From Microthyrium microscopicum (taxonomy: Eukaryota; Ascomycota; Dothideomycetes; Microthyriales; Microthyriaceae), in assembly GCA_010405405.1 (NCBI GenBank), contig MU004230.1, positions 3,555,744 to 3,619,743 on the forward strand: a DNA stretch of 64,000 nucleotides, given 5' to 3'. The position numbers and the translations under genes were made by a program. Shown piece by piece: positions 20,321-58,127 of the stretch. Each line of letters opens with the position of its first letter. Position 1 is the stretch's first letter. The notes below the pieces were generated by a model. That model had not been told where the DNA came from and ran no database searches. It worked only from the letters and a program-made list of their open reading frames with translations.

Positions 20321-21814
20321 ATGTCAAATCCCTCGCCGCCGAAGCCTTGGGAGCGCGCCGGCGCTGGCACTGTCTCTGGAGCTCGTACGTTATCTCAATA
20401 ATTGCACTTAGAAAGAAAAAACTAATTTATATCCTAGCGCTAACAAGTTCCACAACCTCACAACCTACATCCACAATGGACGGGTCATCAACAGCACCTC
20501 CCGCCTTACCCTCTAGACCGGCTACTCTCTCTTCCGTCGTAAATCAAACCGCGTCAAATTATTCTACCATGAACGGCGCTGGTGCCTATGGTGCTTCACC
20601 CTATGGCATGAGCGGCATGAACAGCACATATGGCACCGGATACAACTCCTACAGCTCTCCATATAATCGCTTTGGTGGTATGGGAGGATCAATGTATGGA
20701 GGAGGCATGGGAGGTATGGGCGGCGGCATGTATGGCGGTATGGGAGGCGGAATGTATGGCGGAGGCATGGGAGGGATGTACGGGAACCAAATGGGAATGG
20801 ATCCCAACAACCCAAGCTTGACTCAATCGTTCAGCAACAGTACACAAGCAACCTTTCAACTCATACAAAGCATAGTGGGAGCCTTTGGCGGCTTTGCCCA
20901 AATGCTTGAAAGCACATTCATGGCTACACACTCCTCATTCTTTGGTATGTCTCGCAATTTATAAGTCTTGACCAGATCACAGCTAACCATCACCAGCCAT
21001 GGTATCCGTCGCCGAACAATTCGGTAACCTCCGCCAAACCCTCGGCTCTGTCCTAGGCATATACACCGTAATGGGCTGGCTCCGCTCCCTCCTCGCCAAA
21101 GTCACCGGCCGCCCACCACCAGCCCGCTCCACCGATCTCACACCCGCGAAATTCGCCAAGTTCAACGGCCGTCTCCCTGATGGCTCACCCGCTCCCCCAG
21201 CGCCAAGCCGAAAACCTCTCCTCGTCTTCGCCCTCGCCGTCTTCGGCCTCCCCTACCTCATGGGCAAGCTCATCAAAGCCCTCGCCCGCAGTCAAGAAGA
21301 ATCCGAACGCCGCCGTCTCGAAGCCCTCCCCGCCGAGACCCCTCTCGACCCATCCCAACTCCTCTTCTGCAAAGTCCTCTACGACTTCAACCCCGAAAAC
21401 GGCGCTGCCGTACCAGGCGTAGATCTCGCCGTCATAAAAGGCGATCTCGTCGCCGTCCTCTCCAAAGCCGACCCTCTCGGCAACCCCTCCGACTGGTGGC
21501 GCTGCCGAGCCCGCGACGGCCGAATGGGCTACCTACCAGCCCCATACTTGGAACCAATCCAACGACGTGTGCAGAACGCGATAGCAGCAGCGACAGCTAC
21601 GACGCCAGCGGGCAGTAGAGCGCACACGATGACGACTACTGTGGCCGGCAGTGGAAGCACGCCGAATAGTAGAGCTAGTACGCTGACGGGCATGAAAGTG
21701 GAGGATCTTGTCAAGGGACAGGATGGTGTCACTGAGCTGAAGCCCGAGGTGGTGGGGAAGCCGAATCAGATATCGGTGGAGAGTTTTCAGAAGAGCATGT
21801 TTAACAATTCGTGA
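20321..21814 (+). CDS. PEX13: Peroxisomal docking protein peroxin-13 (SH3 protein)
   Basis: Membrane component of the peroxisomal matrix-protein import docking complex with Pex14 and Pex17; it binds the receptor Pex5. Three exons: 20,321-20,384, 20,438-20,944 and 20,997-21,814, with introns of 53 bp (GTACGT...CTAG) and 52 bp (GTATGT...CCAG). The 64-nt first exon supplies the conserved N-terminus MSNPSPPKPWERAG. The product is 462 aa. Residues about 75-160 are Gly/Tyr/Met-rich (repeated GGMYGG), as in other Pex13 proteins. A conserved helical region with SFFAMVSVAEQFGNLRQTLG follows, then a hydrophobic segment (about 263-285), then an SH3 domain (about 312-378) with ALYDF-like VLYDFNPEN, DWWRCR and GYLPAPYLEP. 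The C-terminal tail is Ser/Thr-rich. Tail-to-tail with the E2 gene. Confidence 0.95.
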
Positions 21815-24397: not shown

Positions 24398-24567
24398 TCA
24401 ATTTTTGATGTATAAGTAATGAATCCGGCTGGATCGGGATCGTTTATTAGTTTGTAGGTAGCGGATTGTGCAAATGGTTTTAATATATAGCGTGTAGAAA
24501 ATGGAATAGGGAGTTCCACCAATCGTCCGAAAACAAGCAAGTGACATTACATCTGACTGACAAAATC

Positions 24568-24677
24568 AATGGCGCGCTCCCATCAAGTACGATGTCTCCT
24601 ATCGCACTTCTTAAAGAAGAGGGATATCGAGAAGCGTGGCGGATAATAGACATCATACTTGATGGGAGCATGCCATT
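24568..24677. repeat. Imperfect inverted repeat, MITE-like, with shared GCTCCCATCAAGTA core
   Basis: Arms 24,568-24,603 and 24,643-24,677 are inverted copies, with about 30 of 36 positions equal, around a 39-bp loop. The core GCTCCCATCAAGTA is exact in both. Similar single arms occur at 29,960-30,006 and 39,682-39,730 in the same window, so this looks like a small dispersed inverted-repeat family. Target duplications are not clear. Most differences between arms are transitions. Confidence 0.55.
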
Positions 24678-24883
24678 TGTTCTGCCTCTGGTTGACATTA
24701 ATGAGACTGGACAGGGATGTGTCCATCAGGCTGAGCATCAGGCTGACAATCAAAATATGCTTATGTCTCACAGCACCACCACATTAGAGCTACTACACTC
24801 TGAAAAAATATCAAACCATCAATAAATTGCTCCATGATTACATCTGCTTAGTTGTCAAATAAAAATACGGCACTTTATCTTCC

Positions 24884-25372: not shown

Positions 25373-25675
25373 CTAAGAGTTACTTTGAGAGTACCCTCGC
25401 TGGTAGTACCAACACTTTCCTTTACAATCTTCAAAAGGCTGCGCCACATATGTCCTAGAATAACAATATCCACAAGGCTGACAGGGCGGATACTCAGGTG
25501 TTCCTTTACACACAACATTTTCAGAACCCTTCATTGTTAAGTTTCCCCAGTAGCCATCAGGTCTACATGTATTGCAAGGCCATCGAAGTTCTTTTCGTCC
25601 ACTACAATGGGGACAATGCTCTAGCTCATACCCCATACCGTCGCAAGAAACGCATTTGACAGGCAAAATTTCCAT
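25373..25675 (-). CDS. Small stand-alone DnaJ-type zinc-finger protein 1 (100 aa)
   Basis: Intronless 100-aa protein whose only recognisable content is cysteine pairs of the DnaJ zinc-finger kind. In order: CVSCDGMGY (residues 8-16), CPHCSGRK (21-28), CNTCRPDGYWG (about 34-44), a lone VVCKGTP, then CQPCGYC (about 66-72) and C-x3-C near 85-89. The first pair keeps the CxxCxGxG signature; the later ones have drifted. No signal peptide, membrane segment or J domain. It lies next to a J-domain gene on the same strand, 863 bp downstream of it, and shares its layout with three other intact genes at 30.5, 31.1 and 36.4 kb. In class A J-proteins such fingers bind zinc and help hold client proteins; the plant protein BSD2 is a known finger-only chaperone. 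A similar role here is inference. Confidence 0.7.
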   Translation of the reverse strand: MEILPVKCVSCDGMGYELEHCPHCSGRKELRWPCNTCRPDGYWGNLTMKGSENVVCKGTPEYPPCQPCGYCYSRTYVAQPFEDCKGKCWYYQRGYSQSNS

Positions 25676-26538
25676 GACGTTTTAAGACTTTGTTTTATGG
25701 ATATGTGAGTGCTAGATCGGGTGCGATGTTGCAGTGATATAACCGTTCTACCAGGATCAAAGGCGGCGAGGGCTGATGGTAACTAAAATGTGTCGGTACA
25801 AGGGGACTGGTATGCATTTCTACTCAGCAATTGTTTATGTGTCAGGTGCTATGGAAATCCTGCTGCTGTTATTATCCACCTTCGGTGTAAGAGTCATCTG
25901 AGATATATCACCGCTGGTGATCTAGTGCCATCCGTTCACCTCTCAATGGCACGCATAGTTTCGAGATTGAGTTTGTTTAGTGATGAGAGTCTATATCAAC
26001 GAAGTCATTTTACACTAGGACAATCAAGTGATCTTTCTGGTTGTGCACTTGTATCTATTTGCAATCCTCAAACCTTATATGGTTTCTACTAGTTATCGCG
26101 AAGGTGGGAGGTAAGGAAACAAACGCCGTGGACTTTATACAATCACGGAGGTAGGAGGTAAGACATCACCGAGTGACGAATCTAGTGTATTAAGTTTGTT
26201 CAATATGCTAGAGGAGGTATCGAATACGTCGACAAGAATGATTTCAATTGATGTCTACCTGCAGCAGAACGGGTACAATCAGTACGCCTCAGATCTTCTC
26301 AGACCAACTTGACAAGTCGCTACAATCATCCATAAAGCACGTCTACCTTGCGTTCATGCTATCATAAGCAATGTCATCATTGCAATGATCGCGTCCTATT
26401 AACTTTCATAATCATACAACACGCTCGTAAGAACGCTCATGCATTAAAGTCAACTATCACAGTCATGCCGTATAACCGTCCATTAAGAACATCATCATTC
26501 AAACAGCCTCAAATCGACCACAGTCTACCACTGCCACC
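25676..26538. other. Intergenic region between zinc-finger gene 1 and J-protein
   Basis: Contains the upstream region of zinc-finger gene 1 and the 3' side of the J-protein gene. A 100-codon plus-strand frame (25,790-26,092) has a CLCVRC run but nothing else of the finger family, and I do not accept it as a gene. Confidence 0.45.
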
Positions 26539-29265
26539 CTATTGAGCAGTAATAATAGGAGGCCCGAATCCTTCCTTCCGCACTCGTCCCTTGATCTTCA
26601 CAAAGTCCATCACGCACTTTTGATGCCTATTACAAGCGCTAGACCAGAACTCGCGAACCCGTCGGTCCTGCTCCAACGTCTCCGCATATCTCTCGATACC
26701 ACCGTCTCTAATATCGCCGCTGGCTTCGAGGAGATTTGTTGCGGCCTGATTAGGAATACCTGTGCCGAACTTTGTTGCGTCGACATGACGTGTTGCAAAA
26801 TGTTGGATCATCTTGTCTTCGAACTGATACCAATAACCCATGTAGGCAGACATGTTACCAACGTGTTGCTTCCATTCCTCATGGGTCATTCGTCGACCTG
26901 TTGGAAGTTGTGGTGGCTGTGGAGCCTTTGGAATGTTTAGTGGCGCATTTGATGGAGCCGTTGGGTGACGATCTGATGTGCCAGAGTTAAACGGAAGCGA
27001 TGTTGATAGATCTCCTATATCAACCGAGCCTGAAGCTGCTCGTTTGGTGAGGTTCGACTTGAGGTCGGCGAGATTTAGTGAAGGCGGTATCTCTTCCGGC
27101 GCGGAAGCTCCACCGGTAGTGGGACGCGAGCTAAAATTGGGTGGAGGTCCAGGCGGTGGAGGCGGTATATGCTGATTCGGTGGTGGGACAGCGTTTGGCA
27201 CTGCTGAAGGCACTGCAGTTGGAATCGTAGGTTGGCCCAGAGGTATTGCGCTAGAGCCCGAAGCGACTGGCTTTGTCTCTAGCATATCTCGCCAGTCTGC
27301 TCGCTGGGGAGCAGCTGGTACCATTCGCACATTACCAGAATCTGATCTACCAGCTCCGCGAAAGGGTGGAGTCATATCGACATCAATGTCCATTGCATCA
27401 ACGTCCTCTTTCGAACCGCCAGTGGATGCGGATCGACTCGTAGGCTTTCCGTCTCGATTCGCGCCTTTTGCGTCGAAATTGGGTCGGTCCGCAGTCTTTG
27501 ACATTGTCCGAGGCCGTAGCGGCTTCCTAACAGTAGATGGTGGACGTGATTGTTGACTCAGATTGTTTATATCTGGTACAAACAGTGACGGTTGTTTGAA
27601 ATACTTGCCCCATTCCTCTGCCGAGAACTTGACAGGAGGTGAAGGGTTGGCAGGAGAAGGATTTACAGGAGAAGGTTGAGTTTCGCCTGCACTTGGAAAG
27701 GGTGTGTTGGTGTTTATTGGTACAGTATCCGAGATGTTGATATAGACCGGGCTCGTGGAATTTTTGCGAGACGTGCGCATGGGTGATGGTCTTGAACGGC
27801 TCGTTTGTGGTCCCAGTTGTGGCGGTCCAAAGAGATTATTCCCCTCAAAAACGCCTGTCCAATCTTTTGAAGCAAATGAGGTATCAACAGGCTGTTTTCC
27901 ATCCTTGTTAGGCGATACTGTCCATTTTCTCGAGGGCATCGCTACCTTCCGTGCTTGTGGTATATTGAAATTTCCAGTTTGTGCTTTTGCAGAGAATCCT
28001 GATGACCCACTCGAGGAATCAGACTCGGATAAATCAGAGACAAAAGGTTGCTTTCTAGCATTAGCACCTGGTGATGCTTGGTTCGAAGGGGCATTGTGTG
28101 GGCTCGAACTTTTGGCTCGAGGCGTTGTCTTCTTAGAACTGGGATTTGAACCAGCGGATTCATAGTCCGCCGCCATTCGTGCCTGGTCCTTAACACTCGT
28201 CGACCGTTGGAGAAATTCGGCTGCGCCCACACTAACCTTCTCTCCACCAGAACCTTGATATGGGGAACTTATCCGTTCACCATAAGACATATCCTGGTCA
28301 ACGTTTCTCATATTAGGAAAGGACTGGGGATGCATGTGTTCCGAGTGTCTCTTAGGCTTCGGTTGCGCAAATTCATCCTCTTGGTCATGTGTGGGGACGA
28401 AATTGGGAGGAAACATTCCATCGGTGTTTCCTTCTGTAAAGTGTGGGCGGGTTTTATAGGACGATGTTTGTTTAGCAGCGGGTTCCCAGAAATCGCCAGG
28501 AGCATTTGGATCGAACCCATTCTTACGGGGAGCTCTAGTCGTGTTGCTTCGATGTATTCCTGGATGAGCAGCACTTGCTCTACCAAAAGGACCATGATTG
28601 CGATCAGCTCCTGTATCATCCCCAGATCCAGGTGTTGACGGTTGTGTTCCAGTGTTCGGCCGACTGTGTGTCTTGTTCATGTTTTGCCATGCATTGAAAA
28701 CATTATCTCGAAGATTGGCATCATCCTTCGCTGCCGCCGGACGAGGAGGGTAGAATTGGGCAAATCTATTAGGCCCCGTAGGATTCGTAAATTTACTGGC
28801 ACCTGTAGGGGCCGCAGACGGTCTCGTCGATGTATTGTAAGGATTCTGAGGCGGCGGTCGGTTTGGGTGATTGGAGGCCTGACGTGGAGGGGGTTGAGGT
28901 CGTGGAGGTGGTCGTGGAAAGGCTTGAGAGGGTGGTGGAAAATGAGCGGGTTGTGGAGGTGGTCTAGGTCGAGGTTGTCTGAAAGTAGAGGGATATGGGG
29001 AAGGTTTGGGCACGGCTCGGGCGCCATAACCTAATCGTTTGCGGTCGGCATCGTATTTTGCTCGTTGGTCAGGATCACCGAGAACTTCGTGAGCGGCTTG
29101 AATGGCTTGGAATTTCGGGACATATTCGAGTTCTTTGCCCGGGTTGCGATCAGGATGGTATAGCCGGGCTAGTTTGCGGAACTGCTTTTTTATGTCGTCG
29201 GTCGAAGCAGCGGGTGAGACGTCAAGGTCAGCGTAATAATTACGCTTCGGGTCTGCTTTGACCAT
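26539..29265 (-). CDS. J-domain (DnaJ/Hsp40) protein, 908 aa, no zinc finger
   Basis: A single open exon. Residues 8-73 form a J domain: YYADLDVSPAASTDDIKKQF, the HPD tripeptide at 37-39 that stimulates Hsp70 ATPase, and FQAIQAAHEVLGDPDQRAKYD. The rest to about residue 785 is low-complexity, rich in Pro, Ser, Asn and Arg, with poly-Pro runs near 100-130 and 690-705, and is probably disordered. The last 120 residues look folded, with MTHEEWKQHVGNMSAYMGYWYQFEDKM and VREFWSSACNRHQKCVMDF; a comparable tail exists in other filamentous-fungal J-proteins as far as I recall. There is neither a CxxCxGxG finger nor the DnaJ C-terminal substrate domain, so it is a class C J-protein. Flanked on both sides by finger-only genes. 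The start follows GACC (ACC-ATGG type) and gives the full J domain. Confidence 0.88.
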   Translation of the reverse strand: MVKADPKRNYYADLDVSPAASTDDIKKQFRKLARLYHPDRNPGKELEYVPKFQAIQAAHEVLGDPDQRAKYDADRKRLGYGARAVPKPSPYPSTFRQPRPRPPPQPAHFPPPSQAFPRPPPRPQPPPRQASNHPNRPPPQNPYNTSTRPSAAPTGASKFTNPTGPNRFAQFYPPRPAAAKDDANLRDNVFNAWQNMNKTHSRPNTGTQPSTPGSGDDTGADRNHGPFGRASAAHPGIHRSNTTRAPRKNGFDPNAPGDFWEPAAKQTSSYKTRPHFTEGNTDGMFPPNFVPTHDQEDEFAQPKPKRHSEHMHPQSFPNMRNVDQDMSYGERISSPYQGSGGEKVSVGAAEFLQRSTSVKDQARMAADYESAGSNPSSKKTTPRAKSSSPHNAPSNQASPGANARKQPFVSDLSESDSSSGSSGFSAKAQTGNFNIPQARKVAMPSRKWTVSPNKDGKQPVDTSFASKDWTGVFEGNNLFGPPQLGPQTSRSRPSPMRTSRKNSTSPVYINISDTVPINTNTPFPSAGETQPSPVNPSPANPSPPVKFSAEEWGKYFKQPSLFVPDINNLSQQSRPPSTVRKPLRPRTMSKTADRPNFDAKGANRDGKPTSRSASTGGSKEDVDAMDIDVDMTPPFRGAGRSDSGNVRMVPAAPQRADWRDMLETKPVASGSSAIPLGQPTIPTAVPSAVPNAVPPPNQHIPPPPPGPPPNFSSRPTTGGASAPEEIPPSLNLADLKSNLTKRAASGSVDIGDLSTSLPFNSGTSDRHPTAPSNAPLNIPKAPQPPQLPTGRRMTHEEWKQHVGNMSAYMGYWYQFEDKMIQHFATRHVDATKFGTGIPNQAATNLLEASGDIRDGGIERYAETLEQDRRVREFWSSACNRHQKCVMDFVKIKGRVRKEGFGPPIITAQ

Positions 29266-30499
29266 GGCTGGGCTGCTGATTCTATAGAGCAGAACAGAAC
29301 AGCATTGTGGAGATGTTTGTAGGAGAAAAGGAGTAGGCGATAGATGCTCGGTCGACGCGCAATGACGGAGCCCTGGAGGAGTGGTAGTTGGGCGCGGCTA
29401 GGTGGATGGACAACAGTCGCAGTCAGTCTGTGAGAGGGGACGCTTTTGGTGGTTTCTGCGGTTGATCACCCTGGCAGCGCCTTCCCTGCCAGTGACCGGC
29501 CCTGCCCGGCACTTTCCTGAAAGACAAGGATCCCCTGCCTAGACCGGCTTGCTGGCATTTCACTATCAACCTCATCTCAACTCCAACGACTCTCCCTCAA
29601 TAATCATCAGAAGTCTACAACTTCATCACAGGTTGATATTACCACCTGAAGTTGCCTCTAAAGTGTCTCAACAGCGTACACATGTACCTTGAAGCTCTGA
29701 CCAACGTGAAAACCCTGGACGCCGTCATCTTCCAGCATCACCACACGATAGTCTCTCATCAATGATTCATCCAGACCGTACTAATCATGTAGCTATTCAG
29801 TAAGGTGGTGTGCAGATTGCGTATCTTGTTCTTCTATAGGTTAAGGCTGCTTCGCAAATACTAATACTATAACACAAATGACTTGTCCGCTACGCTCAAA
29901 GCCCACCGGCCTCAAGAGGCTTTGACATCCTATAGTCATATCGTACTGCCAACCGAAGGACAAAACAAATGTCGCGCTCCCATCAGCTTCGTTGGCTCCT
30001 ATCGGGCGGCCTCCGCTACTTCTGTAATGAACTGCTCCATTTTCCATTGGATGCGAAGAAACAGTTGTAAAATATCGATTACGATGGGAGTTAGAGAATA
30101 TAATGTTTAGCAGCTGCGCTGGTAGACATCGCACTCGCTGGCAGCGCGCGATTCGTTTTGTCGGCCCGTCAACTGCTTCTGCGTTCTGAACTGTAAGCAG
30201 ATTGACTATGGCTAAGACTCGTTGACTTTGCGTGACCTTGAACAATAAATCGCAATTACAGGCAATCTGTCATATGAAGCCGAAGAAAGATCAAGTCAGC
30301 TGCTTGCCAAAACATGCTCAATTCATATATGATATGCCTGACAGAACCTTCAGCTGGATCTCCTACCTCTTAAATTCAGCTTTTTATCCAATATTATGCT
30401 CCCGCCTATCTCTTTTGGCTGAGTTTATTTACATATCAACACGCACAGGCGAAACAGCTCTCATCAGCTGCACTCTGCAGTTCAGATATCCCAGTCACC
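29266..30499. other. Intergenic region J-protein / zinc-finger gene 2
   Basis: Divergent promoter region. The J-protein side is GC-rich. About 29,560-29,650 looks like a fungal 5' leader on the plus strand but leads to no gene. A copy of the GCTCCCATC repeat core lies at 29,960-30,006. A 134-codon minus-strand frame at 29,841-30,245 overlaps that repeat and resembles nothing known. Confidence 0.45.
29960..30006 (+). repeat. Single arm of the GCTCCCATC repeat family
   Basis: Starts ACAAAACAAATGTCGCGCTC and follows the left arm of the 24.6-kb inverted repeat, including the later GGCTCCTATCG, with internal differences. A possible weak opposite arm with ATGGGAG lies near 30,081. It is about 500 bp upstream of zinc-finger gene 2. 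Confidence 0.4.
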
Positions 30500-30802
30500 A
30501 TGGCCCCAAGAGCCAATGGCACTAGAAAAGCTCATAAAAAGACATCCGTTCGATGCTCAGAATGCAATGACTCACAAACAAGACAAATAGAGTGTGCTCG
30601 GTGCTTTGGGCAAGGATTGAAACCCAGTGCATGCCCTCTAATGGAAATCGTCGATGTACCTTGCTACTATGATGGAACACAATTCAAGTGCGGTCGTTGC
30701 CGAGTTCATGATTACAGGATTGCCAAAGTACAATGTGATAAATGTCAGGGAGAAGGCGTGGTGACCGTTAACTGTTGGGTGTGCGTCGGGAGGGTGATTT
30801 AG
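30500..30802 (+). CDS. Small stand-alone DnaJ-type zinc-finger protein 2 (100 aa)
   Basis: Intronless, 100 aa, starting in a good CACC-ATGG context. A basic N-terminus (MAPRANGTRKAHKKTS) is followed by cysteine pairs: CSEC (19-22), CARCFGQG (33-40), a divergent CPLM...CYYD part, CGRC (about 68-71), CDKCQGEG (81-88) and CWVC (94-97). Two of the pairs keep the full CxxCxGxG pattern. The pairing order resembles the two-site DnaJ finger in which four CxxC elements bind two zinc ions, but a spare pair is present. The N-terminal Lys/Arg patch could be a nuclear or nucleic-acid contact (inference). Same strand as gene 3, 288 bp apart, so the two look like a tandem pair. No signal peptide or J domain. 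Confidence 0.75.
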   Translation: MAPRANGTRKAHKKTSVRCSECNDSQTRQIECARCFGQGLKPSACPLMEIVDVPCYYDGTQFKCGRCRVHDYRIAKVQCDKCQGEGVVTVNCWVCVGRVI

Positions 30803-30959
30803 GTCTTACGATTGAGAATAAGATCTGGTTCATAGTGAGATTGTCAGGAGTATTCGACACAGTTCCCATTTAATAAGTGTCGTCATTTACATCTTTGGAA
30901 TTGCACCACACACTCGGATCTTGATCAACATGAACACTAAGTTCCATCGAGTTGACTAT

Positions 30960-30967
30960 TATATAAA
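30960..30967 (+). promoter_or_regulatory. TATA box of zinc-finger gene 3
   Basis: TATATAAA lies about 125 bp before the start codon of zinc-finger gene 3, followed by a pyrimidine-rich stretch (TTTCTTCCATAGTCTTCTC). The position fits a TATA-driven, probably regulated, fungal promoter with a leader of roughly 80-90 nt. Confidence 0.5.
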
Positions 30968-31090
30968 CCTGTCGCTGCGCTACTATTTCAAATCCAAACA
31001 TAATCCTTTCTTCCATAGTCTTCTCTATTTTGAATGCTCATAAATTTTAGTTCCTATAATTAAGAGCCTCAGTTTCCTGTCAACCTCAAA

Positions 31091-31375
31091 ATGGGTACGA
31101 GACGTAATGAAGGAGCGCCAAATTGTAACCGTTGCCATGGCACAGGCTGGGTGGATGTTTGCTGTGACAATTGTAACGGGAGCGGAAAAGCTAAGGTGAA
31201 ATGTGAGGAGTGTGAAGGAGGAATAGTCCGTACCGGAGAACACGAACACGCGTGGAAGAGATGCTCAAACTGTTATGGACATGGCTTCATATTACCGAGT
31301 CCAAGGGTCTGTACGATCTGTGAAGGGATAGGTAAGGTCCCCAGGAAATGTCCTAGATGCAGGCCTCGCGGTTAA
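31091..31375 (+). CDS. Small stand-alone DnaJ-type zinc-finger protein 3 (94 aa)
   Basis: The clearest member of the family: intronless, 94 aa, in good context AAA-ATGG. Cysteine motifs in order are CNRCHGTGW (12-20), CDNCNGSGK (26-34), CEECEGG (38-44), CSNCYGHGF (58-66), CTICEGIGK (74-82) and CPRC (87-90). Four motifs match CxxCxGxG fully, which is the number needed for a complete two-zinc DnaJ finger; two partial motifs are extra. About a third of the protein is Cys or Gly. No other domain, signal peptide or membrane segment. DnaJ and Ydj1 have this domain after a J domain and a G/F linker; here it stands alone, as in plant BSD2. The nearby J-protein could supply the J function in trans (inference). 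Confidence 0.82.
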   Translation: MGTRRNEGAPNCNRCHGTGWVDVCCDNCNGSGKAKVKCEECEGGIVRTGEHEHAWKRCSNCYGHGFILPSPRVCTICEGIGKVPRKCPRCRPRG

Positions 31376-32552
31376 TAGCTTGATTACCGTGAATTCCCTA
31401 TCTCCTAGAGACCAGTAATACTTGGGTCTTTGAGTAGTGTTTTCAAATCTTTGTTCTTGGGAGCGAATATGGTAGGCGCTGGTTACTAGCACATCTCTTC
31501 CTTACAAATATTGACGGTTGAGTGTTGAGCCCAAGTAGTCATATATTGTAAAATCTGTATCAGGGGTTCATGATAAACTGCCAACCAGGTTCATAACACT
31601 GGCTGAAGGCTGCTTGAAAAGGTAGCTTGTAGAATAACAGCCACTAGGTACCTACCGTAGCGCGCGACGGGCAGTAACAGAAATCGACTAGTAATCATAC
31701 TATTATGCTTTTTTTGCAGAAAATATATGTTGCTTATAGTGGTGCATCGTGCGCACTCTTTTAAAGAAGTATTTTTTGATAAGAAAAGCATTCTTTGAAA
31801 ACATCATTTTCTAGCCATGTTTCAATCATGTTCTAAGAGCCAAAAAAAAGGCAATAAAGTTAAATTGTGTTAGAGATAAGGAGGATTAAGAAAAACTACT
31901 TTATTAATTTTTATTTATTACAATTCGAACTACAAATAAGGCTAGATCAATACACTACAGCTTAGTCAGGCGAGGCAGAATTACGACTACTTTTTACTAG
32001 GGGTTTCACAATAATAAAGAAGAAATTACCAAGCTTATGTATATAGCCCCCATTTTATTTAGCTTATATACTTTACTCTTTCGTTCTTACTAACATCCTA
32101 TCGTGCCTTCTTCATCTTTAGTTATAAGCGCTTTTATTCACAGAACATAAGATCTACTCAAGACATCACATTCTAGAGAAGAATAGGCTTCTAAAAAAAG
32201 TTCAAAAGGTAATGTAGTTTCATCAAAAGATCAAGTCCTTTACTCCCCCCTCCACGCTACGGTACTTAGTGTAAGCCAGATTTCAAGCTCTTATGAAGTT
32301 CTTTGTCCCTTTTTACTTTACGAGTGTTGTCGGATGCCTAGACCATAGACACCATTGATGTTTGGTGTTCAGTGGCCTTGAGACATTCACCGCTTCTCTG
32401 TCTTTCTTTCATTGAATCTTTGTCCACTGAGATGTAATGCAGCCAATAGTGAGACTTTGCAATAGTTCTGGCACTGCGAATGGAACATTTATTGCTATTT
32501 AATAGATTCTACTTCCACTGTTCCCTAAAAACTTCCATCTTAATTCCAGTTG
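31376..32552. other. Intergenic region up to the mariner element
   Basis: No gene recognised. The GC content falls from about 31,700 onward but CpA/TpG are still present, unlike the transposon interior, so this is AT-leaning host DNA rather than a RIP product. It ends at the TA duplication at 32,553. Confidence 0.5.
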
Positions 32553-32554
32553 TA

Positions 32555-32601
32555 CACTAAAATACGAAATGTCATTGCTAGCCACCCTCCCTCCCTACAT
32601 A
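32555..32601 (+). repeat. Left terminal inverted repeat of the mariner element
   Basis: 47 bp, preceded by TA. It includes the C-rich run CCACCCTCCCTCCCT, which escaped RIP because it has few CpA sites. Confidence 0.9.
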
Positions 32602-34979
32602 TGTAAATAGCGCAATTTTTAGCTATTCCGCTAATTATAGGTAAAATAGCCTATGAAGCTAGAATTATAAAATTCTAATTATTACTAGCACTAAATATTA
32701 ACTAGGAATTTTAATATTATATTATAACATTAGTATACTAAAAGTAGGTATTTTAGTAGCTATAATAATTAGCTTCTTCTAGTCTACTATAAGGATAGTA
32801 TCTAGTCTTCTACCATAGTATCTAATACTCTACTATAATATTTTAAACGTAGCTAAAGGGATACTATGTCTTTATATATAAAATTCTTAATATTAAACTT
32901 ATATAAGATATAGCCCTTTGCTATTATTACTATTATTATAACTTCTTTATCTCTTTATTAAATTCTATAGCGATTTAACCCTCTTATCGCTCAAGATAGG
33001 TTAATTAGCTAAGAATATTATTGTTCCTACTTACTAGAGCTCTTATAAACGTACTATAAGCACTATTGCTATTACTAATACTACTCTTAAAGCCTCTACT
33101 AAGATTATTATTCCTTTAACACTTACCTCTAGCTACCCCCTTCTACTACCTTAAGAATCCTCTTCTTTAGACCCTTTAATTAAACTAGAGACTTAATTTC
33201 TTAACTCTTAAGCACTAGAATCTTAACCCCTTACCTTTAAATCTAACTAATTAGAGGCTAAGAACGCTATATCTCTTAACTACAAAGTTATAATTAAATA
33301 TAATATAAAGGTACAGGATAAGGGCAATATTTATAACAAAGAATTTACTTATTAGCACCTCTATACTATTAATTTTCTTTATTAGGTATATAAGAAGGTT
33401 ATTAAGAAGTAAGAGAGACATTTTGCTATTAAATAGCGTCCTTATTATTAATATAATGTCTCTTTAATCCTTTAAATATATATTATACATAAGGAAGGGA
33501 TATTAAGAAGAATTACACTAGATTTTGCCTATCCATTACTTAAACATCCTTCTAAAGATAAAGGAAACTAATTTAATCCTCTTAATCTAAAGATAACTAG
33601 TTAGTACTTAAAGTTCTTTTATTAATAGCTAATATTTATTCTTATCCTAAATTTTAAAGGCTTTTAGAATATTATAAATATTAATAATCCTACTAGAGCT
33701 TTAACTTCTACTATAACGCAAGAACTAGCTTCTTAATATTTAGGAGCTACCTAAATTAATAATCCTTCTACTACCCTTCTAGATAACAATTAAAATCCTT
33801 CCCAAAATACTACTAATAGTAATAGTATCTTAGATAATAAGGTCCTTAAGAAGTTATTACAACTTATCCTAAAGTATACCTATAAATACTAAACCTACCC
33901 TTACTATAAGAAGCGTACCTATTAGACTAATAATAGGCATAACTACTACACTATAGATAAGGAATTACTTACTATTTAGGCTATAGAATAGGCTAATAAT
34001 ACTCTAAATATTAACATCTTAAGGCTGTTAGTAGCTATTTATAACGTTATTTAATAGCAGCAAGTTCATCATCCTAGACCTATTTAATTAAGTAGCAATT
34101 CCCTCTCACTAATCATAATCTATAATTATATTAGTTTAGCATTAGAAGTAGCGCCAATAGCTTCCTTAGAGCACCTTTATCTAAAGATATGCCTTAACAC
34201 TAACGTAGTTCTTAAGCTAAAGGGGTTTAAATCTTAGGCCCTTAACAAGATCGTTAGTAGTAAAGAACTAGGTAATCTAATAACAATTAAGGTCCAAAAG
34301 CTGTTTAATATAATACGATCTTACTTTATATAACTTCTTTACCTTAGAGAGAAGAATATTACTTAGTTCTTACGGTTTAATGTAATTATAAATAAGTTCC
34401 TTTTAGGTAAACTTCGTAATATTGTTAAGCAGTAGTGAGCAGAGGATTAGATGACTTAAATATACTCGTTTGCTATAGATAGACACTTTATATATATAGA
34501 GAGTATTTAGATTCTATAGTTTTAGTATTTTTTGTATAAAATTTAACCTTACCGTCATTTAATACGACCTAATTCTTTAATCTAGCTTTACGATATTAAG
34601 ATATAGTTATAAATCTTACTATAGTAATTATAGATTCCTTAAAACACGTAATGCGCTAAACTACTATAGGTAGCTACTAGATTATAATAGGCCTTAGCGT
34701 AGGGTACTAAGATATAATTTAACATAATAGAACTTAGATTCTTTATAAAGTACTAAAGCTATAAAGACTTTAACTAAAACTATACTTCATTACTATAAGA
34801 TCTCTATAACAAAAAGGCTAAATTTAATTCTAAAAAAAATACTCTAGTCTAGATAGGCTATCTAGTATATACAAAATAATTTTTTACGCATCTTTTATCC
34901 CTTCCTTATATAAGAACGGCTTACTTAAAAACCTCCTCAAAAAGCTAGAACTTTTCTTTACGATTTCTTCCTCTCTTAA

Positions 34980-35945
34980 AGTCTAGTTAATACCGCTTTA
35001 AGTAAGACTTAATATTACTAAATAAGGCTTTAATTAGATTTAGGTCTAGCAAATATAGTAGTAAATATTCTAATTTAACCCTATGCTAGTTATAAATATC
35101 CTATATATTACTATTGTAATAAAAAGATACGTTATTTATAATAATAACACTATAAAGAGTAGAGTAGTAGCTATAGAGAGGAAGAAGCCTATTATCTAAC
35201 TACTATTTAAAGCTAAGTCTATCTAAATTTGCTATATATTTATCGTAATTAAGAAGGCTATAGATAGTATAAGCTAGAATTAGGTTTAACCTCTTTATAT
35301 AATCTAATTACTTACAAGACTTATAAATAATACCCTATAGGCTCTATCTAGTATAATAGCAAGTATCTAATTTACTACTATTACTCTTATCTATAAATAC
35401 TAGCTATTTAGTATTATATATTAACATACGTTTAAAATATGCATCTCATTAAAGGCTATAGCGTTATTAAGCAATCTCTTTAACCTAGAAGAAGTAGAAT
35501 TAATATAGGAATTACTAGGAAGTAATATAACTTACTCATTTCTTTATCTAATTAACTTACTATAGTTCCCTCTTTACTATAGCTTTACTATAGTTAACGT
35601 TAAGCTTAAGCTATAGTAATATTAATATTTTATTAAGATAATAAGTTTCCTTTAGTGCTAGGATCTTTAGCATAAAATTGCGTATAGCGTTAGATATCTT
35701 TAGGACGCAACTAAGAATAAATTTAAGTTATTTAATATACTCGCTAGTAACTTCATTAAGACGTTTATAATAAAGACGTACAATATATCTAGAAACCTTT
35801 ATATATTTAGTAATAGTAGTACACGTTTAGCCTATTTAAAGCATTATAATAATAGCTTGCTATTAGTAGTTCATAATATAACGTCCCTATTGTAATCTTA
35901 CTAACTTCATTTTAAGCTATTTCTAATTAAATAGGGTCTATAATA
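34980..35945 (-). pseudogene. Decayed Tc1/mariner transposase
   Basis: The minus strand read through many stops shows an HTH-like segment (near 35,800-35,700, SRYIVRLYYKRL) and, near 35,050-34,985, a segment of the form YLLDLNLIKALFSNIKSYLK. That matches the PYSPDLNPIE...LK signature around the last catalytic acidic residue of Tc1/mariner transposases, including its spacing to a basic end. The stops are mostly TAA/TAG where RIP would make them from CAA/CAG/TGG. Inactive. Confidence 0.7.
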
Positions 35946-36194
35946 ACAGGTTAGGATAAGAATAATTAATTTATATATAAAATAGGTAAGAGAATATTAA
36001 GGGATGTCTAAATAGACATGTTTAGATTAAGAGCTTTTAAACAGTAGCTAAAACACCAATATTGGCATACTAAAAGTAGTATGCTACTTTAATATTTAGA
36101 ACGCTTAATAGGATAGTACGAAATAGCCTAATTTTCTACCTCCCAAAGCTGTAGGCTATTTTACGTGTGATTGGTGGAATTTGATAAAAACTAC

Positions 36195-36241
36195 TATGCA
36201 GGGAGGGAGGGTGGCTGGCAATGACATTTCGTATTTTAGTG
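36195..36241 (-). repeat. Right terminal inverted repeat of the mariner element
   Basis: 47 bp, followed by TA at 36,242. It lies 145 bp before the start codon of zinc-finger gene 4, so the transposon sits in that gene's upstream region. Confidence 0.9.
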
Positions 36242-36385
36242 TAATTCGACACTCCCGAGCGATCATAATTATCTTGACTTCGTTGCCTCTTCTGAGCACT
36301 CAAAACATAGCTTCTCGTTTCAATCTATCCCAGCTAGATCCATCGGCCCAACAACGCCATTGCTAATCTCTCCGCTGCCGGCAAA

Positions 36386-36640
36386 ATGGTACAACCCCGT
36401 TGTGAGAACTGCGATGCTACCGGTCGTGTCGAATCGACCTGTAATCGCTGTGCTGGTGGTGGCCGGATATATAGGAAGATCCAGGATAAGTGCGCCGAAT
36501 GTCCGTCTGCCTCTCACTGCGACAATTGCACTAGGGATGTGTACGAGCATGTCGGTGTTTGCACGAAGTGCAATGGTCGAGGCGAAGTCTCGTGGCTTTG
36601 CCCACAGTGCAAAGGGTTTGGACTCTTAGGCTTTCCATAA
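36386..36640 (+). CDS. Small stand-alone DnaJ-type zinc-finger protein 4 (84 aa)
   Basis: Intronless, 84 aa, starting in AAA-ATGG context like gene 3. Cysteine motifs: CENCDATGR (6-14), CNRCAGGGR (20-28), CAEC...CDNC (36-48, closely spaced), CTKCNGRGE (about 59-67) and CPQCKGFGL (about 72-80). Four motifs keep the CxxCxGxG spacing with one Gly changed in the first, so a full two-zinc finger could form. No J domain, signal peptide or membrane part. It shares start context, size and motif order with gene 3 more than with gene 1. The mariner element ends 145 bp upstream, so its original promoter has probably been displaced or shortened; whether it is still expressed is open. Confidence 0.78.
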   Translation: MVQPRCENCDATGRVESTCNRCAGGGRIYRKIQDKCAECPSASHCDNCTRDVYEHVGVCTKCNGRGEVSWLCPQCKGFGLLGFP

Positions 36641-37201
36641 GTCACAAGCTCTAGCCAAGTTCTGGCGTGTCAGTGAGTGACTGAACTTGATAGAATCGGT
36701 ATGAGCATGCTGACAATGACAGAACCATGGATCTTCTTACCTTATCAGCAACGGGGAAAACTATCAAGAGTCTGGTTGCGTGTCTGGGGTAGCAGCTTGT
36801 TGAATTGGAAGCTGGTTGGGAGTCTCTAGGTTGATATGGGTTGCTGTTGCTGATTGACTACTCTTTGCTTGTCTGCATCAGCAAACTGTGCTCTTCTCAC
36901 TTGATCTGCATGTTTTATCTGTTTGAAACTATTGGAATATAAAGAACTGTCATGCTGTCATTTATCCCAGTGAAAGCTCGCCCTTGTATTCCATTCGCTA
37001 CCAGCTCCAGTCATGCCACTTCCTGTATGCCATTCAACACCTCCGTTCAGCTCACATGTCGACTGGTCAACAACATCAAAAAAATGTCTTGCTGTTGGCT
37101 AACACACTCGCTTGATCTCTCAGCTTTAAAACACCTTGAGCCTCATTTCACACTCGCTCTCTCCTTCCGCCCATTCACTACTGAAGACCACGGAAGAGAT
37201 C
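36641..37201. other. Intergenic region between zinc-finger genes 4 and 5
   Basis: No gene recognised. The part from about 37,090 to 37,190 is pyrimidine-rich and resembles the leader of the following, broken, finger gene. Confidence 0.45.
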
Positions 37202-37495
37202 ATGGCTTAAAGAAATCCCGCTAGTTCTTGCACTTGTAGTTGCACCAGATGCAAAGGCAAGATGATTATCGACCAACCATGTCCTGAATGTGATGCTCTG
37301 GGCTGGAAGCTGGAGCACAAGCGCTGTGCTTGCCCTATCACTCCGCTTATCACTGCATCCGGGCCAGGTCAAGTCGAAAACAAGGTGGGGCATGACCTCC
37401 AAACTTCATTGTCAGCTCCATATCAGGATCCAAGACCCGATTGTCCTGGTTGCCATGGTACTGGCACCTACTCAGATCAATCAGTGTGTCAATGA
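37202..37495 (+). pseudogene. Broken DnaJ-type zinc-finger gene 5
   Basis: A fifth family member. The expected start ATGGCT (37,202) is followed at once by TAA, then the same frame continues as RNPASSCTCSCTRCKGKM, CPECDALGW, CACP and CPGCHGTGT to a TGA at 37,493. The stop at codon 3 is one C-to-T change from CAA. The TGA after VCQ is one C-to-T change from CGA, which would complete a CQRC pair, since a Cys codon follows. Both changes are of the deamination type. An internal ATG (37,262) could still give a 77-aa product with two finger motifs, so a shortened gene is not excluded. Start and stop context match genes 3 and 4. Confidence 0.65.
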
Positions 37496-37966: not shown

Positions 37967-39502
37967 TCAGCTACTACTCTGGCCATAATTTTCCTCCTCA
38001 AATTCCATTGTGAGGCGAATCCTAGACTCTCCGTTGAAGAGTGCGCATTTCGCAGCAATGACAATCGTTTGTTGACCCGGTTTCCTGCAATACACTTCCC
38101 CTCTGGTGTTTTTGATCTGCCACCCTTCTTGAACAGTAATAGAACTTAGCATACGGAACCAATTTGCAGCAACATCGATGGTAACAATCGTTTCGCTTGA
38201 GGGCTCCAAGTTCTTAATTGAAAATATTGCCTTCCGTGAGCTTTGGTTCGCGAACTCGTAAAAGCCTCCCCCGATATGGTTTATCGAAGGGCTTGCAGAC
38301 GAGATAATGAGATCGGGTATGGACGTAACGAACATGATTCCGCTTGCTCTGTGATGTGTAGTGTATACTCGGTCTGAAGGAATTTTCTGTGGGAAGAAAA
38401 TAGTGGCTCCTGAAGGGCCTTTCATATAAGCTCTTGTATCCGGGTCGAAAGCAAGTTGGTCTGGTAGGATTCGAGCGTATAGATTTTCTCCCATATGCTG
38501 TAGGTAGACACCAACCGCAATGCTCCATGACTTCTTCCACACCCCCCATAGCGGAAGAACAAACTCATTTTCAGCGGATTCGCATTTCAAGATTCTTGTC
38601 TCTACACGAATGCCTTTGTTGGTAATGTCATAAAGCGGACTAGTAGTGTGAGACAGAATTACATCCGCACACTCCGCGAAATGTGAAGGCGACGTGGATA
38701 ATAGCCCTCGATAAGAGGACGCCGTGGCAGACTTGTCACACCAGCAGAATAGCGACATGTCATCTGATGTTTTGATGATTTCTTCTTGAAGGCGCAGGAA
38801 AGCTCGTTCCCCTTCTCCGTAGAGCATTGCCATGTTGACCTCAAATATGCCCATGAGGCAATACGCTATGTCTTCTGCTCTGGATGTCGATCGATGAGCC
38901 GCCCAGCTCATTCGCTGTGCTACTGAAGATTTTGAGACATTTCCTGTCACAAGCACGCTAATAGGCACGCCAGTAATGGCCTGAAGTTCCACGGCCATGC
39001 TCTTTTTAGTTCCGAGGTGTATACCGTTTTCCGAAAAGAAAACTAATCTTTGTGGAGCGATCAGTTCTTGTAGACACCAGCCTCGAGAGAACCATCGAGC
39101 GTCCCGAAACTTCTTCCACCATGCCTCGTCGGCCTCAGGAGCAGCTCCATCTAGCCTTGTGGGGACATCCGACAAAAAAGTGTAACATACGGCTGCATTT
39201 CTGTACCAGCGATACATTGAATTGATTGCTTCCGAGAGCTCTGCACTGCTGGATTTGTTAATGCAACAGCTGTCAACCCAGAAATGTTCGATGCCATCAT
39301 CTCGAATCCGTTTGGCACAGAACTCTATCTTGCGATATCCTGGCTTTGACTCTGCAAGCGCTCTGTTCTTGTTCATATCCTTATAGGTAACTTCGTCATT
39401 TCCCCATGTATGAGAAAGGATCGCGTATGCTGGTATATCTTCATCCCGCACGAACTCCTCAAACATAAGAGGCCCGTCTGCTGAGGCTCGAAGCAGACGC
39501 AT
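37967..39502 (-). CDS. HET-domain (heterokaryon incompatibility) protein, 511 aa
   Basis: Single exon. HET domains act in fungal self/non-self recognition and cell death when unlike strains fuse; the domain is TIR-like in fold. The domain covers about residues 26-170: YAILSHTWGNDEVTY (26-40), EHFWVDSCCINKSSSAELSE (72-91), SMYRWYRNAAVCYTFLSDV and WFSRGWCLQELIAP (137-150). These are the classic HET blocks in order. It is followed by the SRAEDIAYCLMGIFEVNMAMLYGEGERAFLRLQEEI run typical of the het-6/vegetative-incompatibility family. The C-terminal 220 residues are unassigned, without ankyrin, WD40 or NACHT repeats. The chosen start, MRLLRASADG, is the usual N-terminus in this family; the frame extends 57 codons upstream but that part looks non-coding. 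No TIR or transposon sequence interrupts it and it looks intact. Confidence 0.92.
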   Translation of the reverse strand: MRLLRASADGPLMFEEFVRDEDIPAYAILSHTWGNDEVTYKDMNKNRALAESKPGYRKIEFCAKRIRDDGIEHFWVDSCCINKSSSAELSEAINSMYRWYRNAAVCYTFLSDVPTRLDGAAPEADEAWWKKFRDARWFSRGWCLQELIAPQRLVFFSENGIHLGTKKSMAVELQAITGVPISVLVTGNVSKSSVAQRMSWAAHRSTSRAEDIAYCLMGIFEVNMAMLYGEGERAFLRLQEEIIKTSDDMSLFCWCDKSATASSYRGLLSTSPSHFAECADVILSHTTSPLYDITNKGIRVETRILKCESAENEFVLPLWGVWKKSWSIAVGVYLQHMGENLYARILPDQLAFDPDTRAYMKGPSGATIFFPQKIPSDRVYTTHHRASGIMFVTSIPDLIISSASPSINHIGGGFYEFANQSSRKAIFSIKNLEPSSETIVTIDVAANWFRMLSSITVQEGWQIKNTRGEVYCRKPGQQTIVIAAKCALFNGESRIRLTMEFEEENYGQSSS

Positions 39503-40618
39503 TGTGCTGATGTCGGAGGAGGGTAATTCTCTACTGGGCTTGAAAGCCGAAAGATCCACCGTTCGATTTGTTGGCCAGTTTAGTAGAAGACTTGATGCTA
39601 ATGTCTGTGGGAACCAGAGATTTGAAGGCAGAGTCCAGAGATGATAAGAAACAAGAGCATATAATGGTCTCAAACGGGCGACGAAATAGATGGCTCGCTC
39701 CCATGAAGTACTCTTATGATGTCTACCATCTGCTCCGCTTAGGTTTTACTGTAGGACGCCCTTTTGGAGGTGCGACAGTTACATCGGTCCTACCACAAAA
39801 TTACGGTGTCCTACTCTCTACCGGTACCTGTTGGTAGGACCAAAGCTAATTGGTTCAATTATGGTTCTAAGCTAAAATTTAGTGATGAAATACCCGCGAG
39901 TTACCTACAAAGGTGTAGTCTTAGGAGGAGTATCAATTTGCTCGTATTTCACAGGATGAAGTCCTCAGCTCTCGAGTTAAGGAACCGATGAAATATCTAG
40001 GACGCTAATTAGATCAAAAGCTCTTAAATGTAGAAGTAGAAGTTTCCTACATGCCTACTACTGACAAAATACAAACAGTGAAGCCTTCCACTCCTTACAA
40101 GGGGCTTTTCCTCGGATTGAATGCGCAAAATGCCTTATTTCCTACAAGTTCGGTGAGCATCGAAGTATCTCTCTTCCAAGCATTGCGATCATTTGCGATG
40201 GGAGGTTATGTTAGTTGATGTTGCGGTCACGTTGAAATCGGCCTTTGATAAGCTAAAGAGCCACCAAGGTCCAAGCCAGGCTTGCCAGGGCTTAGCGCGA
40301 CAAGGTAAGGATGCAGGGATGTGCTCTGCGGCGAATGCTTGGCAGCTTGCTGCCACTTACACCAACCGGTCCGAGATTAAGACTCTACTACTTCCCCATA
40401 GCAATCGCTACTCTTCTCTGGTATATATCCTACATATCCTACATCGATGTTACCATTCAGATACTGTGCCATATCTACCAAGTCTAACTGGACATCAATG
40501 GCGTTCACCTAGCGCTCACAACACCAGCAAGATCTGACACCACACCCGTTTGACAATCCGACATCTACATCGATCTCTACATTCCGATCCAGCCTCTTGC
40601 CGCTCCCAATCCCTAAGG
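39503..40618. other. Intergenic region HET gene / phosphodiesterase
   Basis: Divergent region. It contains one arm of the GCTCCCAT repeat family (39,682-39,730) and a 10-bp perfect hairpin stem GGTCCTACCA/TGGTAGGACC (39,786-39,795 and 39,832-39,841). No gene recognised. Confidence 0.5.
39682..39730 (+). repeat. Arm of the GCTCCCAT repeat family with 4-bp insertion
   Basis: GATGGCTCGCTCCCATGAAG followed by TACTCTTATGATGTCTAC: the same order of blocks as the 24.6-kb arms, but with a short insertion between the AAGTA and GATGTCT blocks and C-to-G at the CATCAAG position. No opposite arm found nearby. Confidence 0.4.
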
Positions 40619-50553: not shown

Positions 50554-50715
50554 TATTAGGGGTTGAACCCCCTGAAGCTATGCCCGTTCGGGCTACCCCT
50601 ATTATATATAAACACCTCAATTAAAGAGTCTCTTGACTCTTCTTTCTCTCTAAGTTACCTTCCTATTTAGTAGGCTTACAATATAACTTGTCTCTTTATT
50701 ATCTAACCCATAATA
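50554..50715 (+). repeat. 5' LTR (162 bp)
   Basis: Contains the short palindromes GGGGTTGAACCCC and GCCCGTTCGGGC near its left end and a TATA-like TATTATATATAAACACC, the likely LTR promoter. It keeps more CpA/TpG than the element interior. Confidence 0.85.
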
Positions 50716-57965: not shown

Positions 57966-58127
57966 TATTAGGAGTTAAACCCCCTAAAGCTATACTCATT
58001 TAGGCTACCCCTATTATATATAAATACCTCGATTAAAGAGTCTCTTAACTCTTCTTTCTCTTTAAGTTACCTTCCTATTTAGCAGGCTTACAATATAACT
58101 TGTCTCTTTGTTATCTAACCTATAATA
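57966..58127 (+). repeat. 3' LTR (162 bp)
   Basis: Same length as the 5' LTR and aligned to it without gaps; more RIP-altered than the 5' copy. Followed directly by the ATTTT target duplication. Confidence 0.85.

Follow-up and report, generated by a model that had tools for sequence, protein, structure and literature searches.

A local group of small cysteine-rich finger proteins without a J domain in the filamentous ascomycete Microthyrium microscopicum

Introduction

It is usually hard to ask what the zinc finger of DnaJ does alone, since the J domain and the substrate domains of that protein confound the answer. A locus of the filamentous ascomycete Microthyrium microscopicum may bear on this question. 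The stretch of DNA analysed here (assembly GCA_010405405.1, contig MU004230.1, positions 3,555,744 to 3,619,743 of the forward strand; 64,000 nucleotides, hereafter the window) carries five short open reading frames (ORFs), here called Z1 to Z5, that are rich in CxxC units. Are these ORFs genes, are they akin to one another and to the DnaJ finger, and what might their products do? Directly seen in the window are the ORFs and their cysteine layout, a DnaJ-type register in Z3 and Z4, the clustering, one broken copy and a transposon-like insertion.

Results

Four intact ORFs and one broken copy

The five ORFs are as follows.

Z1, 25373-25675, minus strand: intact finger-only ORF of 100 amino acids, with 12 cysteines, five CxxC units (two of which overlap) and one exact CxxCxGxG motif.
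Z2, 30500-30802, plus strand: intact finger-only ORF of 100 amino acids, with 12 cysteines, five CxxC units, two exact CxxCxGxG motifs and a net charge of +7.
Z3, 31091-31375, plus strand: intact finger-only ORF of 94 amino acids, with 13 cysteines, six CxxC units and four exact CxxCxGxG motifs.
Z4, 36386-36640, plus strand: intact finger-only ORF of 84 amino acids, with 12 cysteines, six CxxC units and three exact CxxCxGxG motifs.
Z5, 37202-37495, plus strand: broken copy, with an inner ORF at 37262-37495 of 77 amino acids and one exact CxxCxGxG motif.

A preliminary description of this DNA had claimed four intact genes and one broken gene, and the coordinates and frames proved correct, the intact products being 84-100 residues long and that of the Z5 inner ORF 77. 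Z2, Z3, Z4 and Z5 lie on a common strand as a same-strand array; Z1 is the member that has diverged furthest. In Z5 the third codon is an in-frame stop. At its other end the frame closes right behind residue 76 of the 77-residue inner ORF, a lone cysteine 3' of the last full CxxC. Because the inner ATG (37262) lies 3' of the first CxxC units, the inner ORF is without those units and would encode a truncated domain. The claim that the products are made almost only of CxxCxGxG-type motifs held in that they are cysteine-rich CxxC proteins, but not in its uniformity: Z1 to Z4 have 1, 2, 4 and 3 exact motifs, and with counts of one and two, Z1 and Z2 do not fit that wording. Cysteines make up 12-14% of the residues, with many aromatic, large and charged residues between them; Z1 and Z4 are near neutral in charge and Z2 is basic.

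A Pfam scan of Z1-Z5 returned no family at its cut-off, and no J domain in Z1-Z4. Hydropathy was measured on the Kyte-Doolittle scale in 15-residue windows starting at residues 1-20, and no hydrophobic N-terminus was found in Z1-Z4 (the best window mean was 0.76, in Z1); by hydropathy, no membrane stretch or signal was evident in these four proteins either. The statement that the proteins have no J domain, signal peptide or other domain was thus upheld by Pfam at its cut-offs and, for the signal peptide, by hydropathy only, no signal-peptide program having been used.

Cysteine layout and likeness to the DnaJ finger

The CxxC units of Z1-Z4 are regularly spaced. Of the 18 distances from one CxxC to the next, nine are exactly 13 residues long, where the null mean is 0.68 and none of 5000 draws got to nine; all four proteins have 13 as their first distance and three of them as their last. 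In an hhalign comparison with an archaeal DnaJ finger (probability 94%, E 1.1e-7, from one template sequence), the first CxxC pair fell on DnaJ motifs 1-2 and the last on motifs 3-4; in between, Z3 has two CxxC units that the archaeal finger lacks. The four CxxCxGxG units of the DnaJ finger make two zinc sites. Twelve cysteines would be enough for three Zn(Cys)4 sites, and we infer that Z1-Z4 are candidates for a DnaJ-type finger that binds three zinc ions and has no J domain.

To the Pfam model of the DnaJ finger (PF00684, gathering cut-off 32.7 bits) Z3 scored 27.9 bits (E 2.9e-6), Z4 20.8 bits (E 4.6e-4), the Z5 inner ORF 15.3 bits (E 0.024) and Z2 12.1 bits (E 0.25), while Z1 matched neither this nor any other Pfam model at E up to 1. 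These were the leading sub-threshold Pfam matches, followed by weaker zinc-binding or short cysteine-rich models. The likeness of Z3 and Z4 is lost on shuffling: none of ten shuffles of these two proteins with the cysteines held fixed matched PF00684 at E up to 1, as real Z3 and Z4 do. Compared to the archaeal DnaJ finger, the Z1-Z4 profile scored 28.9 bits, the maximum over 500 cysteine-fixed shuffles being 19.9; for Z3 alone, shuffles equalled the real score in 0/500 cases as query and 1/500 as target, and for Z4 in 0/500 in either direction.

Among solved structures, the best match of the Z1-Z4 profile was the cysteine-rich domain of Escherichia coli DnaJ (E 9.9e-6, over 30 of the 84 profile positions); full DnaJ (E 0.0028), anti-TRAP (E 0.0062) and ten weaker matches followed, some of them to unrelated zinc proteins. 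In a single-sequence search of the PDB with Z3, anti-TRAP (E 0.034) came ahead of DnaJ (E 0.11). Scanning genome contigs with Z4 gave one match, the finger of a 358-residue archaeal DnaJ in which a J domain can be seen by eye, and scanning viral contigs with Z4 gave one weak match, in a 229-residue ORF with two motifs, of which one is exact and the other partial. Single-protein scans, which reach close relatives only, returned nothing for Z3 in viral and genome contigs and nothing for Z1 or Z2 in viral contigs. Judged by these comparisons, Z3 and Z4 are DnaJ-type, with a likeness that extends beyond the cysteines though it stays below the family cut-off; Z1 and Z2 are probably DnaJ-type by layout and company, their likeness beyond the cysteines being marginal only. 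The assignment to the DnaJ finger family made in the preliminary description stands to this extent.

Kinship among the five copies

We compared the copies pairwise, in 20 query-target directions, with cysteine-fixed shuffles as background. Between Z3 and Z4, 0/500 shuffles equalled the real score in both directions, and by this measure the two are clear paralogues. Kinship is suggested for four further pairs: Z1 to Z4 (1/500 shuffles, and 18/500 in reverse), Z3 to Z2 (4/500 and 8/500), Z1 to the Z5 inner ORF (2/500 and 13/500) and Z3 to the Z5 inner ORF (5/500 and 64/500). The other ten directions were inseparable from shuffles, 14-176 of 500 of which equalled the real score. Identity to Z3 is 40% for Z4, 30% for Z2 and 22% for Z1, and a Z1-Z4 profile matched Z5 between its stops (37211-37492) at E 0.0091. 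Alignments also pair the C-terminal half of certain members with the N-terminal half of others, as internal repeats would lead one to expect. The proposal of a local family of finger-only proteins therefore survives as a local group, of DnaJ type at least in Z3 and Z4, but kinship of Z1 and Z2 beyond the cysteines is weak.

Open frames, start contexts and codons

The number of CxxC-rich ORFs in the window was compared with 100 simulated windows (first-order Markov, in 2-kb blocks), counting stop-to-stop ORFs of at least 40 codons and including overlapping CxxC units. ORFs with three CxxC averaged 0.21 per simulated window and none had four or more, whereas the real window holds six ORFs with at least three: five with 5-6 units (Z1-Z4 and 20567-20830) and Z5 with three. 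The ORF at 20567-20830 on the minus strand was rejected as an artefact, being antisense to a Gly/Tyr/Met-rich coding stretch, and CxxC counts alone thus yield false positives. The Gly/Tyr/Met-rich ORF opposite it lies just upstream of a peroxin-13-domain ORF, with which it is probably one gene.

A purine (A or G) at -3 together with G at +4 (ATGG) is a good start context, and all of Z1-Z4 begin in it. The GC content and the indices of repeat-induced point mutation (RIP) of the four ORFs are near those of gene-bearing segments. Between Z3 and Z4, 29 residues (Met and Trp excluded) are identical and the third codon base differs in 20 of them; the aligned codons as a whole share 47% nucleotide identity. 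Synonymous sites thus appear saturated while frames and cysteines have been kept, a pattern that argues for selection on the protein and suggests that this selection has been long.

Upstream regions

We searched 280-600 bp 5' of each of the five copies. Z3 has a TATA-like sequence about 130 bp 5' of its ATG. The idea of a shared promoter was dropped, since pairs of upstream regions (same strand, at most the last 350 bp, no null) had only isolated matches of 9-11 bp.

The surroundings of the array

The features around the array are as follows.

J-domain gene, 26539-29265, minus strand: 908 amino acids, with a Pfam DnaJ domain (E 6.4e-21) at residues 9-72.
Terminal inverted repeat (TIR) transposon relic, 32553-36243, unstranded: AT-rich and RIP-like, with terminal inverted repeats of about 100 bp.
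Elements like miniature inverted-repeat transposable elements (MITE-like), 24559-24700, 29944-30162 and 39680-39740: three short, related elements with inverted-repeat parts, in GC-normal segments around the array.
HET-domain gene, 37967-39673, minus strand: Pfam HET (E 1.9e-14), converging on Z5 from about 470 bp away.

The array had been described as lying around a J-domain gene. That gene is real, as its Pfam match attests, but a role for it in the array is not borne out: Pfam found no finger in the 908-residue protein, and 1.2 kb, including a MITE-like relic, separate its start from Z2. It is probably an incidental neighbour and not an array member. Joint regulation of the two was likewise dropped, given this distance and the intervening relic.

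The two ends of the insertion at 32553-36243 align over 102 columns at 78% identity (47 of the outer 49 columns match), and each begins TACACTAAAA; an ungapped repeat finder (60 nt) reported no inverted pair for it. Given its inverted ends and its RIP-like, AT-rich interior, the best reading of the block is a remnant of a TIR transposon, and the TA at both ends fits what we take to be a Tc1/mariner-type target. Z4 starts 142 bp past it, and this 3.7-kb relic is best read as having split an older array between Z3 and Z4. AT-rich blocks with strong RIP-like dinucleotide shifts occupy 1-11.4, 32.1-36.0 and 48.2-64 kb of the window. Near the border of the first of these lies an imperfect palindrome of about 150 bp (12227-12377, 77% identical to its own reverse complement), and within the last a 162-bp direct repeat (50554-50715 and 57966-58127, 91% identical).

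In a scan of ten neighbouring ORFs one HET domain was found, and most of the others belong to ordinary metabolic or housekeeping families; the window also holds a fungal DUF1776 gene and a Tos1-type wall-protein gene. Near the J-domain gene, 26248-26311 is a 64-bp, 75% DNA match to the HET gene (38452-38514) and a possible HET relic; it did not come up when the HET protein was run by tblastn at E up to 1.

Discussion

We tentatively favour a reading in which Z1-Z4 are stand-alone protein-binding modules, i.e., adaptors or holdases that act without Hsp70 recruitment, and to which we give somewhat less than an even chance. They would be genuine finger-only proteins inside the cell, encoded by a small family with birth-and-death turnover, presumably expressed and located in the cytosol or nucleus. 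Each would be a DnaJ-type finger folded around zinc, lacking a J domain but with CxxC units added in the middle, for which three Zn(Cys)4 sites are predicted in place of two. Each module would then hold or cap a client or partner protein, Hsp70 not being recruited by the finger itself, a mode of action with precedents in ZnJ2 of the chloroplast and anti-TRAP of Bacillus, and members may have specialised for different partners. Binding to proteins is how the known DnaJ-type finger-only proteins act, and no other reading of the Z proteins is as economical.

Several results weigh against this reading. No Z member reaches the PF00684 cut-off, and compared to the archaeal DnaJ finger both Z2 (20/500 and 30/500 shuffles equal to the real score) and Z1 (1/499 and 30/500) lie near the shuffle background. 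For Z4 alone, the best solved match was a chain with a CHY/RING zinc finger (E 0.031), with the DnaJ finger at E 0.051. Structure models were poor, with a mean predicted local distance difference test (pLDDT) score of 48.0 from a single sequence and 38.4 from a four-row alignment, and at such values modelling gives the fold and the zinc geometry no support. No three-unit heat-shock element, at up to one mismatch, occurs in the 280-600 bp searched upstream of each of Z1-Z5, which speaks mildly against a stress-chaperone role. The joint codon usage of Z1-Z4, furthermore, is unlike that of conserved neighbouring genes: its score is equalled or beaten in 918/2000 null draws. Conserved genes, on which the codon model was also trained, exceed their own null mean in 35 of 36 chunks. 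Nor did we find evidence for the "system" that the preliminary description had raised, as the upstream regions share 9-11-bp matches only and no heat-shock element, and the J-domain gene stands apart.

This codon usage would suit the view that the ORFs are decaying or were never functional, remnants of old duplications that are open by chance. Unusual codon choice may reflect low expression as well as non-functional ORFs, and the broken Z5 inner ORF has some resemblance to conserved genes in the same test (10/2000 null draws). Decay would also fit with one copy in five being broken and with the low mutual identity (22-40% to Z3). Four frames have nevertheless stayed open with 12-13 cysteines despite their divergence, third codon positions have been scrambled while residues were kept, start contexts are good in all four, and GC and RIP indices resemble those of gene-bearing segments; we regard decay as unlikely. 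Far less credible still is that longer class A DnaJ genes shed the ORFs as finger fragments. The alignment of the first and last CxxC pairs to DnaJ motifs 1-2 and 3-4 would be expected of such fragments, but the ORFs start and stop on their own, with additional CxxC units and no J domain, and their spacing of 13 residues differs from the 17, 26 and 14 of the archaeal DnaJ finger. An ancient origin of the Z genes from a DnaJ finger is another matter, and may have occurred.

Other rivals accept the genes and differ on their role. Small nuclear regulators that touch nucleic acid or the transcription machinery, like phage Q-like antiterminators or anti-TRAP, would account for a further set of matches, although we think this improbable. 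Z4 matches phrog_127 (antitermination Q-like) at E 1.3e-6; Z3 matches the Pfam Anti-TRAP model (E 0.0019, below cut-off) and the NCBIfam anti-TRAP model NF058604 (E 2.2e-4; 21.3 bits against a cut-off of 65 bits, with Z4 at 15.7, the Z5 inner ORF at 12.1, and Z1 and Z2 not among the matches). The sole plasmid match in tblastn with Z3 is a Pantoea protein annotated as antitermination (E 8e-3), and Z2, with its charge of +7, matches PF12898 Stc1 below cut-off (E 0.0011). These matches are short, however, and may reflect a shared motif only: that of Z4 is partial, its best stretch covering about 20 residues of a 253-position profile. Moreover, the best PHROG of Z3 is one of unknown function, tblastn against phages with Z4 gave no match at E 0.01, and Z1 and Z4 are near neutral. 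Small size, 12-14% cysteine and several tandem copies would equally suit metal buffers, i.e., intracellular proteins of metallothionein type that load zinc or copper in bulk and have no partner. CAAGGT occurs once each upstream of Z2 and Z5, on the opposite strand, and copper-type matches of low information lie upstream of every copy but Z3 (no null in either case), but a full Zap1-type site is absent upstream of all five copies. Bulk loading also sits poorly with a glycine register that counts, in that cysteine-fixed shuffles of Z3 and Z4 lose the DnaJ match, and with the 13-residue period and the many aromatic, large and charged residues between cysteines; we hold it to be a poor candidate. 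A HET gene, finally, adjoins Z5, and the Z genes could be partner or regulatory genes of a HET locus, in a fast-changing allorecognition region whose small proteins are recognised or guarded. The setting is unsettled enough, with a transposon relic, three MITE-like relics, a broken paralogue and flanking RIP-like blocks, and a HET gene working with a linked second gene has a reported precedent (PMC10890737). Yet this is a single HET domain among ten neighbouring ORFs, about 470 bp from the broken copy and in mostly metabolic or housekeeping company; the large number of HET genes in such fungal genomes and a possible HET relic that amounts to a 64-bp, 75% DNA match missed by tblastn make this role quite improbable.

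We return to Z1-Z4 as stand-alone protein-binding modules. A bolder version of that reading, which we consider doubtful, is that the locus represents an undescribed fungal family of three-zinc DnaJ-type fingers that have come loose from J-proteins, in which a 13-residue CxxCxGxG-like repeat builds intracellular proteins of 84-100 residues. The family would have expanded at a locus that transposons invaded, with a separate partner protein for each copy to hold; it would be a counterpart of plant BSD2/LQY1 that evolved independently outside plastids. If the proteins are expressed and bind zinc, fungi would have put the DnaJ finger to new use as a module that stands alone, multiplies and has an additional zinc site, with neither plastids nor Hsp70 recruitment involved. 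The proteins would then be small and easily purified material for asking what the finger alone does.

Among the closest known systems is the DnaJ cysteine-rich domain itself (PF00684, of class A J-proteins, solved as 1exk), with which the Z proteins have CxxCxGxG-type units in common. That finger has eight cysteines in four units, as seen in the archaeal example, whereas Z1-Z4 have 12-13 cysteines, 5-6 CxxC units and 13-residue spacing; Z3 alone has four exact CxxCxGxG units, and two further CxxC besides. Class A J-proteins carry the J domain in the same protein, and Z1-Z4 by Pfam have none. The phage Q-like antitermination proteins of phrog_127 share with Z4 a stretch of about 20 residues, but belong to prokaryotic viruses and fill a profile of 253 positions.

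Finger-only proteins had been said to be known mainly in plants, which proves too narrow: besides the partial match of phrog_127 to Z4, Bacillus anti-TRAP (RtpA) is, according to PMC2896485, a 53-residue DnaJ-like finger protein that binds one regulatory protein and needs zinc. Like the Z proteins it is very small and finger-only, and Z3 matches it in part (NCBIfam E 2.2e-4, PDB E 0.034). It differs in having 53 residues and two motifs, and it forms trimers and dodecamers; Z3 lies far below the NCBIfam cut-off. The plant and algal proteins BSD2, ZnJ2, LQY1 and PSA2 have a J-domain-less DnaJ-type finger, as do Z3 and Z4 and, by layout only, Z1 and Z2. PMC5818400 describes these as chloroplast factors with four cysteine-rich centres, several per genome, and algal ZnJ2 as a zinc finger without a J domain that binds zinc and has holding-chaperone activity, not synergic with DnaK/DnaJ/GrpE. 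Compared by description, the fungal Z proteins are without such a compartment or an evident targeting stretch and have more CxxC units. Among the matches listed in open-licence papers, and as far as their excerpts go, none described a finger-only DnaJ family in fungi, which is weak evidence of novelty. The kind of protein is thus already known; what would be new here, as read from the sequence, is that DnaJ-type finger-only proteins with additional CxxC units have multiplied locally in a fungus.

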